Source: Candidatus Dadabacteria bacterium (GTDB lineage: Bacteria > Desulfobacterota_D > UBA1144 > Nemesobacterales > Nemesobacteraceae). Taken from it: a DNA stretch of 35,274 nt. Below, piece after piece: positions 15,090 to 35,274 of the stretch (positions within the stretch are counted from its first letter, which is position 1; the number at the start of each line of letters is the position of its first letter). The position numbers and the translations under genes are program-made. Under the pieces are notes generated by a model that was given only the letters and a program-made list of their open reading frames with translations, made no database searches and was not told the origin of the DNA. The stretch is taken from positions 1-35,274 of the forward strand of contig VXTZ01000029.1 in the NCBI GenBank assembly GCA_009837205.1, in the 5' to 3' direction.

Positions 15090-16244
15090 CTAGAGTTCTC
15101 CTCTGAATGCTTTTGCAAAGCCGTCATGCTGGGATTTGGCAATCTTCTCCTGTTCGGCCTGCAGATAAGCTCGGTCCTTTCTCTCTATACGTATTATGTC
15201 GTCTCGGCCCTTGGATGCCATGAACTGTGTTCCTACCGTTTCCTTTGAGAGTATTTCAAGTATGGCCGGGTAGTTCTTCGATCCGATGAATATGGAATGT
15301 ATGCAAACCCCTATGCTCTTTGCGCGCGCTCTCTGCGCTTCTACATTGGGATCGCCGGAAGTTGGAATCCCGTCGGTTATAAAGAGTATGTGCTTGTTTC
15401 TAAGTCCTCTGCCTCGGAACTCCTTGAGGGCCTCTCCCAGCGCTTCTTCATAGTTTGTGTTTCCGGAGCAGTCCGTGCTCTCCGCCAGCCTTTCTATCCA
15501 CCTGTAATCCCTAGTGAAAAAGCGGGAGTTTTTCGTGTGTTTTCTTGAGCGGTGGTTAAATTCCAGATAACCGATTCTCATTCTCTTTTTTCTCGCAAGC
15601 TCTATTACTCCCTTCACGACGGATGAAGACCATTCGCTGTACACTCCCATCATCGAAGTGCTTATGTCCCTGAGAATTGCTATCTCCCCTCCGAGCGTTT
15701 CCTTTTCGCGAAGGTGAACTCTAGGCAGCTTGGGGGAAGTGTGCTCGGACCATATGAACGCCTCGACGGGATCTATATCCTCGATCTCGTCAAAAGAGGA
15801 CATGCGCTTCCATTTTCTTGGAGATCCTCCCGGGTGGGAAGTCTTTTTTGCCATGCTTTTCTGGAAATTGCCTTCGAGCACTCTCATGATGCGTTTTATG
15901 TTCTCGGCTGTTTCCTTATTTCCCCTTCCTGGTATTACTGTTTCATCGTCTTCTCCGGCCTTGGATGACTTGCTGCTCATGTATGCGCGGGCGGATTTGT
16001 CCTCCCTCTCCGTGTTCCCGCTGTCCTGTGGATTTCCGGTGGGGTCACTCGGCACGTCCTGGCCTTCTGGAGGAGCCATTTCGCTCTGGTTGTTATCGAG
16101 GTTCTGCTTAAGGTCCTTAAGCGCGTCAAAGAATGTTTTCTGGGCCTCGGCGAGCGGATTCTCGGTTTCCTTATCCGCTTCCTCGTCGGGAATTTCCCCC
16201 TTGGGCTCCTGAGAGAAGTCCTGATCGAATTCCGAATCAGGCAT
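15090..16244 (-). CDS. VWA-domain protein paired with MoxR
   Basis: The 384-residue protein has an acidic, low-complexity N-terminal third (about 1-110) and a C-terminal von Willebrand factor A domain (about 185-340). The metal-ion (MIDAS) residues are visible: Asp193, Ser195 and Ser197 in DISTSM, Thr263 in GNTNYEEAL, and Asp291 in FITDGIP. VWA proteins next to MoxR ATPases act as metal-dependent partners in chaperone-like or cofactor-insertion machines (for example RavA-ViaA). The ATG at 16244 has only a weak GGA upstream. The frame is open without a stop back into the A10 run at the end of moxR, in the -1 frame relative to moxR. Confidence 0.88.
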   Translation of the reverse strand: MPDSEFDQDFSQEPKGEIPDEEADKETENPLAEAQKTFFDALKDLKQNLDNNQSEMAPPEGQDVPSDPTGNPQDSGNTEREDKSARAYMSSKSSKAGEDDETVIPGRGNKETAENIKRIMRVLEGNFQKSMAKKTSHPGGSPRKWKRMSSFDEIEDIDPVEAFIWSEHTSPKLPRVHLREKETLGGEIAILRDISTSMMGVYSEWSSSVVKGVIELARKKRMRIGYLEFNHRSRKHTKNSRFFTRDYRWIERLAESTDCSGNTNYEEALGEALKEFRGRGLRNKHILFITDGIPTSGDPNVEAQRARAKSIGVCIHSIFIGSKNYPAILEILSKETVGTQFMASKGRDDIIRIERKDRAYLQAEQEKIAKSQHDGFAKAFRGEL

Positions 16245-16261
16245 CTGATCCGGGTCCGGGG

Positions 16262-17218
16262 TCAGCTTGTCATCTGGCTTTTTTTTTTATCCTGAACGAT
16301 GTTCCGAAGAATATTGTCCATCTGTTCGTAGACGTCGGGGGGAACCCGGAAAGCAGTCATGTACCTTAAAACGTCGAGGTCTTCTCTTGAACATACCTCT
16401 CTTTCGTTTAGAAGTGCGTGGGAGCGGATAAGTTTGAGTGCTTTTACGAAAAACGTCCTGTCGGTAATAAGGGAGTTGGTTTCGTTAAGCCCGAAGTCCT
16501 CGATCATTATGGCTGCGAAATTCGCAAGACCTTCCTGCACTTCGGGTGGAATCGGAATCTTTTCAAGTGTCTTGTAGCTTTTGTCGAAAAGTTTTTTGCT
16601 TACCCTTTTCGGTATTTTCTCTTCAAACGGCTTTTCGGCGTAAAGCTCGATAACCTTTTTAGCCTCGTCCCATTTTCTTCCATAGGAGATTCCCAAGGCC
16701 TTTACCTGGAGAATGAAACGGTCAAGGTTGGCCGGATCAAGGGGTTCATTGTAGTATTCGTCAGCCGTCGGATTGCTCGTCGCTATAGCGGTCAGAAGCG
16801 GAATGGGTTCGCTGAAGAATTTCCTTTCGTTAAGTATTCGAAGAAGTATGTTGAGCGATTCCCCGGGCGCACGAGATATGTCATCTAAAAGGCAGATCTC
16901 AGATGTAAGTATTCCGCCCTTTACGATATCCTGCTTTATCCTCTCTCCGAGTTCGGTGTCTTCCTTCACTATTGTCAGGTCTCCGACGAGTTCTGAGAGT
17001 CTGGTGTCTCTGTGAAGCTGGTAGAAAAAGAAGTTAAGCTGGGCTGCTTTGGAAACAATTTCCGAAAGCATGGTCTTTGCCGTACCCGGAGGACCTTCGA
17101 TATAAATGTGCTCTCTTGAGATTATTCCGAGAAGAAGAGCAGTTTTTACCTCATCGTGTCCGACGACATGCTTATCCATTTCTTCCCGAAGGGACGCAAA
17201 AGGGTTAGCGGGGTTCAT
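16262..17218 (-). CDS. MoxR-family AAA+ ATPase
   Basis: The 318-residue ATPase has Walker A EGPPGTAKT (residues 41-49), Walker B LLDDISRAP (110-118), sensor 1 ATSNP, and the MoxR lid segment. Members of the family work with VWA proteins to remodel or activate target proteins. The VWA gene follows 17 bases downstream. An AGGAG ribosome site and a good promoter lie upstream. Near its end the coding strand has ten consecutive A residues (GAT AAA AAA AAA AGC), followed by nine codons and a TGA. A one-base slip there would continue into the VWA reading frame. Confidence 0.92.
   Translation of the reverse strand: MNPANPFASLREEMDKHVVGHDEVKTALLLGIISREHIYIEGPPGTAKTMLSEIVSKAAQLNFFFYQLHRDTRLSELVGDLTIVKEDTELGERIKQDIVKGGILTSEICLLDDISRAPGESLNILLRILNERKFFSEPIPLLTAIATSNPTADEYYNEPLDPANLDRFILQVKALGISYGRKWDEAKKVIELYAEKPFEEKIPKRVSKKLFDKSYKTLEKIPIPPEVQEGLANFAAIMIEDFGLNETNSLITDRTFFVKALKLIRSHALLNEREVCSREDLDVLRYMTAFRVPPDVYEQMDNILRNIVQDKKKSQMTS
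16279..16288 (-). other. A10 homopolymer, candidate slippage site
   Basis: Ten As on the coding (minus) strand lie nine codons before the moxR stop. Reading after a -1 shift, or after insertion of one A by RNA polymerase, passes through AAG CCA GAT GAC AAG CTG and reaches the VWA ATG with no stop. The -1 frame is closed only by a TAA at the very start of the run, so only a slip inside the run gives the fusion. The homopolymer and the frame relation are seen directly; use in the cell is inference. Confidence 0.5.
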
Positions 17219-17249: not shown

Positions 17250-17278
17250 ATTATTACATAAAGGGATATTTTTTTCAA
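17250..17278 (-). promoter_or_regulatory. Promoter of moxR-VWA operon
   Basis: On the minus strand TTGAAA (complement of 17273-17278), a 17-base spacer, then AATAAT (complement of 17250-17255). Each box matches consensus at five of six bases. The predicted leader is about 25 bases and includes the AGGAG ribosome site. Confidence 0.5.
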
Positions 17279-32522: not shown

Positions 32523-32552
32523 TTGACAAAATACAACCATGTTTGATAAAAT
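32523..32552 (+). promoter_or_regulatory. Promoter of the methyltransferase cassette
   Basis: A perfect TTGACA (32523-32528), an 18-base spacer, and TAAAAT (32547-32552). The ATG at 32539 lies between the two boxes, so the true start must be the later ATG at 32587. Confidence 0.6.
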
Positions 32553-32586
32553 AATTCCGTCTGTCAATTTAGTACAAGGCGGAAAA

Positions 32587-33957
32587 ATGAAAAACAGAAC
32601 CATTTTTATCCGTGATAACCTTGAAGTTATGCGAGGTATAGCCGATGAATGTATAGATCTCATTTATCTGGACCCACCGTTTAATTCCAACCATGATTAT
32701 GCCGCTCCTATAGGTAGTCAAGCCGCGGGTGCGGAATTCAAAGATACATGGGGATTATCAGATATAGACTTGGCATGGCATGGAGAAATAGAAAGTCAAT
32801 ATCCTGGTCTTTATAAACTCTTGGAAACTACAAGAGAGATACACGGAAAGTCTATGATGAGCTATCTCATTTACATAGCCATCAGGATTATGGAAATGAA
32901 GCGAATTTTGAAACCTACAGGTTCTATCTATCTTCATTGTGACCCCACTGCTTCTCATTACTTAAAATTGCTCATGGATGAAGTTTTCGGAAGGAAATTT
33001 TTCAGAGATGAAATTGTATGGAGAAGAAATGAATCAGGGGCCAAAGGGAGTCAACACGCGTCGAAACGTTGGGGTAATAATGTAGATCATTTGTTGTTTT
33101 ATACGAAAGGAAAAAACTTCCAATTTGATCCGCGCATAATCAAAAATTTAACAGAATCGGAAATCAATAATATGTTTCCTAAAATCGACGAATATGGAAA
33201 CCGATACAACACTAAAACAACAGCTTGGCGGTCGCCGTCTATGGGAGATCGCCCTAACTTATGCTATGAGTTTCGGGGCCATTATCCACCATATTCAACA
33301 GGATGGAGAATGAAATACGAGAAAATGGAAGAAGAATATCAAAAAGGTAACATTGTTGTTACAGAAGAAGGGTTAGAGCGAAGATCGTATATGAAATATT
33401 ATGCTGGTGTGTCACCCGGCAATTTATGGGTTGAGACAGAATTACTTCTTGGGGCACGATCAAAAGAACGCACCGGATACCCAACGCAAAAACCATTAAA
33501 ATTGCTAGAGCGGATAATTAAAGCGTCAAGTAATGAGGGTGATATGATACTTGATCCTTTCTGTGGTTGCGCCACAACTTGTGTTGCCGCTGAGAAATTA
33601 GATCGTAAATGGGTAGGTATAGATATATCCCCTAAAGCTGCTGAACTTGTAAAATCGAGAATGCAAAACGAACTGGGATTTACCATTCTCAAGTTAATCC
33701 ACCGAACCGACATTCCTACCGATCGCGGAGGTAAACGTTCAAGAGATATTAAGAATATTCTGTACGGTAAACAGGAAGGAATGTGTAGTGGTTGCGGACA
33801 CTGGTACAGAATAAAGGATTTTGAAGTAGATCACATAGTACCTAAAAGCAAAGGTGGTTCAGATACAGACGAGAATTTACAACTGCTTTGCGGATACTGT
33901 AACAGGATAAAAGGCGACAGAACACAAGAATACTTGATTTCGCAAGTGAGGAAATAA
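32587..33957 (+). CDS. DNA methyltransferase fused to HNH endonuclease domain
   Basis: The 456-residue protein starts with MKNRTIFIRDNLEVMRGIAD after an AAGGCGG ribosome site. The N6/N4 DNA methyltransferase part has motif IV LDPPF (residues 28-32) before the SAM motif I DPFCGCATT (323 onward), the beta-class order. The target-recognition region lies between them. The last 60 residues form an HNH domain: Cys400/Cys403, the catalytic VDHIVPKSKGG with His416, and a second pair in CGYCNRIKGDR. It thus joins modification and cleavage modules in one chain. The surrounding DNA is visibly more A+T rich than the rest of the window, consistent with transfer. Recognition sequence unknown. Confidence 0.85.
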   Translation: MKNRTIFIRDNLEVMRGIADECIDLIYLDPPFNSNHDYAAPIGSQAAGAEFKDTWGLSDIDLAWHGEIESQYPGLYKLLETTREIHGKSMMSYLIYIAIRIMEMKRILKPTGSIYLHCDPTASHYLKLLMDEVFGRKFFRDEIVWRRNESGAKGSQHASKRWGNNVDHLLFYTKGKNFQFDPRIIKNLTESEINNMFPKIDEYGNRYNTKTTAWRSPSMGDRPNLCYEFRGHYPPYSTGWRMKYEKMEEEYQKGNIVVTEEGLERRSYMKYYAGVSPGNLWVETELLLGARSKERTGYPTQKPLKLLERIIKASSNEGDMILDPFCGCATTCVAAEKLDRKWVGIDISPKAAELVKSRMQNELGFTILKLIHRTDIPTDRGGKRSRDIKNILYGKQEGMCSGCGHWYRIKDFEVDHIVPKSKGGSDTDENLQLLCGYCNRIKGDRTQEYLISQVRK

Positions 33958-34216: not shown

Positions 34217-34395
34217 AAAAAGCCATGATAGACAAAGAACGAGACCTTAAAGGAGCAACCCCGGAAACGCTGGCTAAAGCCTTGTTACGCCCTTGCCAGG
34301 GAAGAAAGCCCGTTGTCCCGGACAAGGTCCCTGTAGAGAAGGTTGCGTCCCATAAGTCCGGCAACGGTGAAACGCATTTGAAGGAGGGTTCCTGA
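34213..34395 (+). CDS. Short ORF running into the insertion element
   Basis: An ATG ORF of 60 residues overlapping the 82-residue gene by four bases. Its first half (MKKAMIDKERDLKGATPETL) looks coding. The second half, from about 34285, is exactly antisense to the 3' end of the transposase gene. Either the IS truncated a longer gene and gave it a fused tail, or the whole frame is a chance read into the element. I regard truncation as more likely. Confidence 0.35.
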   Translation: MKKAMIDKERDLKGATPETLAKALLRPCQGRKPVVPDKVPVEKVASHKSGNGETHLKEGS

Positions 34396-35274
34396 ATCCC
34401 GCATATTATGCTTACCCGCGAATTCCTGAATATACCGATCAAGGTGCTTAGGGCTGATCTTGTGGAAAGTCCCTTTGTGCGCCCTTTTCAGTCCGGCCCA
34501 GAAAGATTCGATACCGTTGGTATGAGCCATACCCTTGACGAACTCCCCGACACTATGGTTTACGGATTTATGATTGGGAAGCCCACTGTAACTCTTATGG
34601 TTGTCGGTATAGACCTTAGCGTCAGGGGAAGTGTTGTTTCGTATAAAATCCTGTACTGTTTCCTTTTCCCTGTTGGGAACTCGCTTGGCAACAACTCTAT
34701 TGGATTTCCTGTCCTTTATTCCAATTACTACGGTTTTGCCGGAAGGGCCTTGCACATGGCTTCTCTTATTGTCATGCTTGTTTCTATCCTTACCGCCCAT
34801 AAAGGTTTCGTCAGCTTCAACAGGGCCTTGAAAATTGTTGTTTCCTTCGGTTTGCCATGCTTCCCGTATCCGGTGAAGCATGAACCACGCCGTGGGTTGG
34901 GATACCCCTATATCTCTGTGAAGTTTCATGCTGGACACGCTTTTAAGGCTTGTAAGGCAAAGGTAGATAGCCAACGCCCACTTTTGAAGGGGGACGTTAG
35001 AACGGGCAATAGCGGTTCCGGTACGGACGCTGAAATAACTCCGGCAATCCTTGCACCAGTAGGGCATGGGTTTGGCGTTAGGAACTTTCCTTGTTTCCAC
35101 GCTTCCGCACTTGGGGCAAAAACGGGAATCGCCCCAGATAATGGATTCGAACCAGCGAGTGGCCGTTTCTTCGTCAGGAAACATTTTCATAAGTTCAAGA
35201 AGATCTATTCCCTCCCTGTAAGCCTTACCGGGAGCTTTAAATGTTTTCTTTTTCATCATGGTAATAATATACAT
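34285..35274 (-). CDS. IS1595-type transposase
   Basis: A DDE transposase reading from the window edge. Near the start, FPDEETATRWFE is followed by a zinc ribbon (CPKCGS...CKDC). The catalytic segments are VEADETFMGG (first Asp), VYTDNHKSY (second Asp) and HTNGIESFWAGLKR (third acidic or Asn region). This order and the C-terminal LLYRDLVRDNGL segment match the IS1595 family (ISXO2-like). ATG codons at 35274, 35259 and 35256 are possible starts. The gene is at the window edge, so it could begin further upstream. Confidence 0.88.
   Translation of the reverse strand: MYIITMMKKKTFKAPGKAYREGIDLLELMKMFPDEETATRWFESIIWGDSRFCPKCGSVETRKVPNAKPMPYWCKDCRSYFSVRTGTAIARSNVPLQKWALAIYLCLTSLKSVSSMKLHRDIGVSQPTAWFMLHRIREAWQTEGNNNFQGPVEADETFMGGKDRNKHDNKRSHVQGPSGKTVVIGIKDRKSNRVVAKRVPNREKETVQDFIRNNTSPDAKVYTDNHKSYSGLPNHKSVNHSVGEFVKGMAHTNGIESFWAGLKRAHKGTFHKISPKHLDRYIQEFAGKHNMRDSGTLLQMRFTVAGLMGRNLLYRDLVRDNGLSSLARA
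34285..35274 (-). mobile_element. IS1595-family insertion element (partial in window)
   Basis: The transposase ORF marks an insertion sequence whose far end lies outside the window. I could not identify terminal inverted repeats or a target-site duplication; the inner end probably lies between about 34213 and 34285. The element adjoins the methyltransferase cassette. Confidence 0.7.

Follow-up and report, generated by a model that had tools for sequence, protein, structure and literature searches.

Organization of the moxR-VWA locus

The window, that is, the whole stretch of 35,274 bases that was analysed, carries on its reverse strand a gene for a MoxR-type AAA+ ATPase followed by an open frame for a VWA part (Table 1). 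The 3' end of moxR reads GAT AAA AAA AAA AGC CAG ATG ACA AGC TGA. Coordinates and reading frames agree with the initial annotation, which had described an A10 run at the end of moxR and, beginning within this run, an open -1 frame that leads into VWA: VWA is read in the -1 frame with respect to moxR, its frame opens at 16286, directly 3' of a TAA that overlaps the first A's of the run, and 14 of its 398 open codons are located 5' of the ATG. One extra A or a -1 slip would give a fusion of about 709 aa (worked out by hand).

Table 1. Features of the moxR-VWA locus, in window positions
Feature	Position	Strand	Remarks
A10 run on the coding strand	16279..16288	(-)	T10 on the + strand; ends moxR
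moxR, MoxR-type AAA+ ATPase, 318 aa	16262..17218	(-)	made by default, with the run read as A10
VWA part, open -1 frame, 398 codons	15090..16286	(-)	from inside the run to its own stop
VWA ORF from the first ATG, 384 aa	15090..16244	(-)	ATG not conserved
moxR stop TGA	16262..16264	(-)	14 nt 3' of the run
Hairpin, 8-9 pairs, CCGGATCAG-loop-CTGATTCGG, VWA ATG in the loop	16232..16253	(-)	12 genus members read
Promoter-like site 5' of moxR, 10/12 matches	17250..17278	(-)	site count as in shuffles

Pfam searches matched the moxR product to bpMoxR (8.4e-21) and AAA_5 (1.7e-18), and the VWA part to the VWA domain (4.3e-9). The MIDAS pattern (DxSxS, T, D) is present, with D154, S156, S158, T224 and D252 invariant in seven aligned rows. 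The combination taken to define a MoxR-VWA pair, namely a MoxR AAA+ domain plus a VWA domain with the MIDAS residues, is therefore found at the locus. ChlD carries a VWA domain as well. An AAA+ domain of the ChlI/ChlD type was not recognized, bpMoxR being the best match; Mg_chelatase matched the window protein at 4e-4, just under the cut-off, and L134 just over the cut-off, spanning 37 residues. In NCBIfam, RavA was the sole match to the window protein, far under the cut-off.

The A10 run is the only homopolymer of at least eight bases in the window. The 1.69-Mb genome contains 16 separate A/T runs of at least nine, two of which reach ten; other A9 runs of this genome (L115, L116, L121, L126 and L129) are inside or near coding frames.

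The neighbouring genes gave no indication of function. The gene 3' of the VWA part is convergent, lying on the other strand in 11/11 loci listed, and the genes 5' of moxR differ in strand between loci. From the look of their ORFs, the window genes beyond the VWA part are presumably mltG and proB. Promoter-like sites in the region numbered two, against a shuffle mean of 1.9. The T10 tract was also considered as a terminator on the + strand and rejected: two terminator-like matches were found against a shuffle mean of 3.8, and the mltG-like gene ends 1.2 kb before. With regard to the MoxR-vWA ternary (conflict) systems, in which a third conserved component adjoins the pair, PADLOC returned no match for the window proteins and a weak IetA match (2e-4) for the natural fusion L044. 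By eye, the ORF at 32539-33957 appears to encode in one polypeptide a DNA methyltransferase with an HNH-endonuclease-like C-terminal end (DHIVPKSKGG...CNRIKG), and a transposase-like ORF (zinc ribbon, then DDE-like) occupies the end of the window at 34285-35274.

Conservation of the A run within the Dadabacteria group

The sample of the Dadabacteria group comprised 57 species genomes. The VWA part was found at E 1e-30 in 54 of them, with no match at this threshold in G023, G036 and G038, and 51 cover the junction; in G009, G028 and G055 the contig ends before it. A record named Dadabacteria with A9 and other indels (L088) was left out of the counts.

The initial annotation had suggested comparing the run and its frame relation among relatives. 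An uninterrupted A run was present in all 51 junctions, as A9 in five, A10 in 30 and A11 in 16. The window's own family, f1, had A10 in all 13 genomes covering the junction (a 14th ends before it); A10 was found in the 12 members of the own genus that were read, and also in G013. Family f7 had A11 in 13/13 genomes and f8 A10 in 12/13. In f2 the run length varied (9, 10, 11) and the frame stayed fused.

The arrangement of the window, with VWA in the -1 frame, was found in 41 of the 51 genomes. Eight genomes, belonging to families f2 and f3, carry moxR-VWA as one ORF of 702-709 codons with the run in mid-ORF, and two, G025 and G051, have A9 and a frame shift opposite to -1, which could be a real third arrangement or an assembly error. 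Homologues with VWA outside the -1 frame, which the initial annotation had counted as evidence against the slip, do occur in these ten genomes; the run stays in all of them, and its retention there makes the case for slippage stronger. A stop in the frame +1 to VWA is located 7-25 nt 3' of the run in 51/51 junctions, the value of 7 coming from G042, which has four N there. G051 corresponds to L109 (named record L082) and G025 to L098.

A quick protein tree of 57 rows (the 51 genomes and six from outside the phylum, G088 not being included) was calculated with the junction excluded; 13 of its 54 inner branches were weak. The run is present in every row. The tree requires at least five changes of frame state, of which three are between fused and split and two depend on G025 and G051 with their A9 in the other phase, and at least six changes of run length.

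Such changes of length could be due to phase variation, in which the run would lengthen or shorten in the DNA, so that some cells make the fusion and others do not. Homopolymers of 9-11 within coding sequence are typical of phase-variable genes, and the A9 of G051 and G025, in another phase, would fit this explanation; however, run length is constant within families (f1, f7 and, with one exception, f8), and in f2 it varies while the frame remains fused. We consider phase variation quite unlikely. Even less credit can be given to the idea that the homopolymer was wrongly sequenced or assembled, or that the gene is decaying: the assemblies are from uncultured organisms and L088 shows several indels, but a run of 9-11 recurs in every one of the 51 species genomes, over many accession series, and the dN/dS of the VWA part is well below 1. 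This possibility appears to us extremely unlikely.

Dadabacteria is the name given to 22 of the 45 named loci that encode relatives of VWA, and the closest named relatives (95-99%) are Candidatus Dadabacteria; this name is used here for the phylum. The other names are Deltaproteobacteria, Thermodesulfobacteriota, 'bacterium' and the like, with one weak match in Pseudomonas. In family f5, the VWA parts of G024 and G025 (L097 and L098) have open frames of 440-443 codons and were matched by the query in two pieces; the two-piece match and the longer frame indicate that about 40 residues are inserted towards the end of the VWA domain.

Occurrence outside the phylum

The VWA part was found at E 1e-12 in six of 329 sampled genomes of other phyla. 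A seventh outside genome, G387, comes from the phylum of one of the six, G288, where 3/5 genomes matched and two gave no match. When 385 genomes around G288 were searched with a profile, nine matches were obtained, none beyond those already known. The seven outside genomes represent three phylum-level groups. All encode single-ORF MoxR-VWA fusions (that of G088 is cut by the contig end), and all seven have, at one locus each, A10 or A11 at the corresponding KKK, which follows the MoxR lid; the stretches containing these loci have 52-61% GC.

A second, more distant MoxR-VWA fusion paralog in G150 (L132) has neither the KKK nor an A run. It is a natural paralog that lost, or never had, the putative slippage site. 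When the Dadabacteria group and the outside genomes are counted together, a run of at least nine occurs at 58 of 59 loci, L132 being the exception.

Conservation of the run beyond the need for lysine

The A run is not there by chance. Outside the junction, AAA accounts for 0.50-0.52 of Lys codons in f1, f2, f3 and f7 and for 0.67-0.81 in f4, f5, f6 and f8. The two aligned columns of the run are AAA in 51/51 and 43/44 rows, and 14 other Lys columns (K in at least 80% of rows) have AAA in 0.28-0.82. In L130 (61% GC in the stretch concerned), Lys is encoded by three AAA and 24 AAG outside the run and by AAA AAA AAA within it. The run is also kept in the in-frame fusions, eight in the phylum and seven outside, where the frame does not need it. 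Conservation of the run therefore goes beyond what the amino acids require.

A single gene served as conservation control, a gene with a KKK motif to which we gave the name BamD-like (L126), a label of our own. It has A9 over the KKK in the window's genome. In 13 genus members the longest A runs at this motif were 9, 8, 7, 8, 5, 5, 5, 5, 7, 8, 5, 8 and 2, and Arg replaces Lys in three members; no match to the motif was found in G013. The L126 run is not conserved in the genus.

Translation of the VWA part

In the own genus, the ATG of the VWA ORF is present in 11 of 12 members and is replaced by ATC in G007; no ATG is found there in G013. The first ATG, GTG or TTG in the VWA frame was located relative to a conserved helix, EARKTFFQALKEL, in the 43 split genomes; rare starts (ATT, CTG etc.) were not counted. 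It was found after the helix in 14 genomes, inside it in seven and before it in 22.

For the 11 codons from the run to the ATG, the dN/dS of the VWA frame was 0.14 (12 genus members). From the run to the end of the helix it was 0.10 for 12 f7 genomes, 0.11 for the seven f7 genomes without an earlier start, and 0.11 for f8, some genomes of which have a start in this interval. G042 (four N's) and G013 were excluded from these sets. All values are approximate: f7 and f8 are close to saturation for synonymous differences, and in f1 the first codons overlap the end of moxR. The late starts, together with purifying selection 5' of the start, indicate that in many genomes VWA is translated from 5' of the usual start codons, which is what a fusion requires.

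The same locus could be read as two ordinary neighbour genes, with VWA translated from its own start by translational coupling and the run representing a Lys-rich tail. The ATG 34 nt 3' of the run and 17 nt past the moxR stop in most genus members agrees with such a reading, as do the 22 split genomes with a usual start before the helix, a number that also counts against VWA being made in the fusion only. These observations have to be set against the ATC of G007, the conserved VWA-frame codons 5' of the usual starts in many genomes, the existence of natural fusions and the exclusive use of AAA within the run where half of the Lys codons are otherwise AAA. Two independent neighbour genes appear to us very unlikely.

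A separate VWA protein, which the initial annotation had retained in addition to the fusion, is unlikely to be the main product, considering the ATC of G007, the missing ATG of G013 and the 14 of 43 split genomes without ATG, GTG or TTG until past the conserved helix. Judged from sequence comparison, in the absence of RNA or protein data, it is most likely that VWA is produced chiefly joined to MoxR, with MoxR by itself as the other product.

Proposed slippage, transcriptional or ribosomal

The proposal that a one-base slip produces a MoxR-VWA fusion, made in the initial annotation, is well supported by the comparison, namely by the run in 51/51 junctions, the purifying selection before the start and the natural fusions in 8/51 genomes, although no slippage was measured. 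Slippage of one kind or the other, transcriptional or ribosomal, is in our judgement very probable. The two would not differ in their protein, since a ribosomal -1 slip and an added A lead to the same fusion.

The explanation that we consider probable is transcriptional slippage giving two products, both the slippage and its transcriptional nature being inferred. According to this explanation, moxR and VWA would be one gene with two products. RNA polymerase would slip on the A10 run, so that part of the mRNA has an altered number of A's; mRNA with ten A's would direct the synthesis of MoxR alone, ending at the stop 14 nt 3' of the run, and mRNA in which the number of A's restores the VWA frame, 11 or 8 for example, would direct that of the roughly 709-aa fusion. 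Only, or mainly, this fusion would supply the VWA part. In the fused genes the slip would result in the short MoxR.

All three phases occur, the shortest run is nine and no signal is common to all families. As far as can be judged from sequences, a run that is never shorter than nine and is kept through frame switches favours slippage of RNA polymerase over -1 ribosomal frameshifting, without proving it. Efficient RNA-polymerase slippage in vivo is reported at 9 A or T (PMC5009743).

Alternatively, a -1 slip of the ribosome at A_AAA_AAA or A_AAA_AAG within the run may make the same fusion protein from unchanged mRNA. An in-phase slippery heptamer is available in 41 of the 43 split genomes, which have the -1 arrangement with the run covering in-phase AAA AAA; G025 and G051 lack it. 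Both chlD and E. coli dnaX are decoded by a ribosomal -1 slip on an A run, and frameshifting of chlD on A_AAA_AAR is a precedent (PMC5009743, PMC9227772). A heptamer of seven bases would be enough for the ribosome, yet no run shorter than nine was found in 58 genomes. Moreover, the fused genes keep the run, and two split genomes are in the other phase.

The RNA 3' of the run gave a mixed picture. The own genus has a 3' hairpin and an AGGA directly before the run, which would suit a ribosomal slip; but the hairpin is about 25 nt 3' of the run and absent in G013. It has one mismatch in G002 and is kept in G007 despite the ATC. Mean folding z-scores, calculated with simple base shuffles (60 per sequence), were clearly negative after the run in f1 (-2.1), f4 (-1.8), f5 (-2.3), f6 (-2.7) and f8 (-1.3), as would be expected of a ribosomal site, but close to zero in f7 (-0.1) and in the outside genomes (-0.1) and positive in f2 (+0.5); the value for f3 was -0.6. 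Folds were drawn for f1, f7 and f8 only and differ among them, and some of the sequences displayed contain SD-like words. No stem-loop or SD-like stimulator shared by all families was found in the nine groups, and a stimulating RNA structure in some families is not excluded. Because of the weak structure in five of the nine groups, transcriptional slippage was weighed slightly down and ribosomal slippage slightly up; the latter remains a possible, less favoured explanation.

Stops in the other frames, at which a slip in a fused gene would end translation, were located 1-37 nt past the last run codon in the seven outside genomes (P(max) 0.01-0.13). In seven f2 fusions they were found at 25-44 nt, no nearer than expected by chance (P 0.36-0.53), and in f3 at 2 and 25 nt (P 0.09). 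All eight fusions of the phylum contain a TAG in the +1 frame. This is weak support only, because ATA makes up 39% of Ile codons and CTA/TTA 25% of Leu codons there.

We think it probable, returning to slippage by RNA polymerase, that an ancient slippage site common to four phylum-level groups allows one gene to encode both the MoxR ATPase and its fusion to VWA, that the default has switched between short and fused, and that what has been preserved is the two-product output and not the reading frame.

Predicted products

The likely product would be a MoxR ring with a metal-binding VWA arm on a minority of its subunits; this composition is inferred, as is the ratio of VWA arms in the ring that slippage would set. 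If slips were infrequent, the rings would have one arm or a few. The ring may act as a remodelling chaperone, working like RavA-ViaA, NorQ-NorD, CbbQ-CbbO and ChlI-ChlD.

A fold model of the natural fusion L044 (702 aa) had a mean pLDDT of 63.8 and is good only in parts. In it, the final helix of the lid spans residues 300-312 and ends in the lysines of the run (about 310-312); a linker modelled with low confidence leads from there to the VWA domain. If the model is right in this region, a protein cut at the run, being cut at the end of the lid helix, would retain the whole of MoxR. The top Foldseek matches were MoxR-like ATPase, RavA and MCM chains. One VWA subunit sits on the hexamer in CbbQ6O1, a measured ratio which its authors hypothesise to be general (PMC4660213), and in NorQ-NorD a VWA finger is found in the ring pore (PMC13036017).

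Comparison with known systems

If the two-product explanation is true, a cellular, non-mobile gene has kept plain A-run slippage across phyla, as a counterpart of chlD in another AAA+ family, and MoxR-VWA chaperones gain a built-in setting of the number of VWA arms per ring. Gene callers would then be reporting, in this phylum, a separate VWA gene with a doubtful start, and assemblies 'corrected' at homopolymers could lose a genuine signal. The natural occurrence of fused and split forms makes the mechanism directly testable.

The gene pair had been regarded from the start as not being a described example of slippage, and no MoxR case was found in the literature searches made. A full-text search, with most subscription papers outside its scope, found no paper on MoxR with transcriptional slippage; among the papers listed for MoxR/VWA together with frameshifting (in one search 15 of 905), two seemed relevant, and their passages on the two topics are unrelated to each other. 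MoxR, frameshift and slippage are absent from a paper on marine Dadabacteria, and the main text of PMC3711429 makes no mention of MoxR or VWA.

In combining a MoxR-type AAA+ protein with a MIDAS VWA protein, the locus resembles RavA-ViaA, NorQ-NorD and CbbQ-CbbO. The two are separate partner proteins there, whereas here the VWA part would be covalently attached to a MoxR subunit.

In T. thermophilus dnaX, transcriptional slippage takes place at 9 T (PMC5009743). The likeness consists in a homopolymer of at least nine, in a short AAA+ product accompanied by a long one with an extra C-terminal part and perhaps, for the MoxR-VWA genes outside the phylum, in the nearness of stops in both other frames. 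The gene is a different one, and in 43 of 51 genomes the short form is encoded by default and the long one would be obtained by the slip, which was not measured here.

Frameshifted chlD of Mg-/Co-chelatase is similar in that one gene gives an AAA+ small subunit and an AAA+-VWA medium subunit through a -1 change, and in being fused in other genomes (PMC9227772, PMC3711429). ChlD belongs, however, to another AAA+ family, and the chlD signals are described as AT-rich slippery sites with 3' RNA structure, in contrast to 9-11 A without a structure common to all families in the present case.

Conserved runs of the A9 type in overlapping ORFs are likewise found in slippage genes of IS elements and Shigella (PMC1088944, PMC5009743). 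A 2005 survey lists seven conserved cases of an overlap with an A9 run, six in IS elements and one in mapW (PMC1088944). Unlike the IS-element cases, the gene described here is a cellular chaperone gene kept across phyla.
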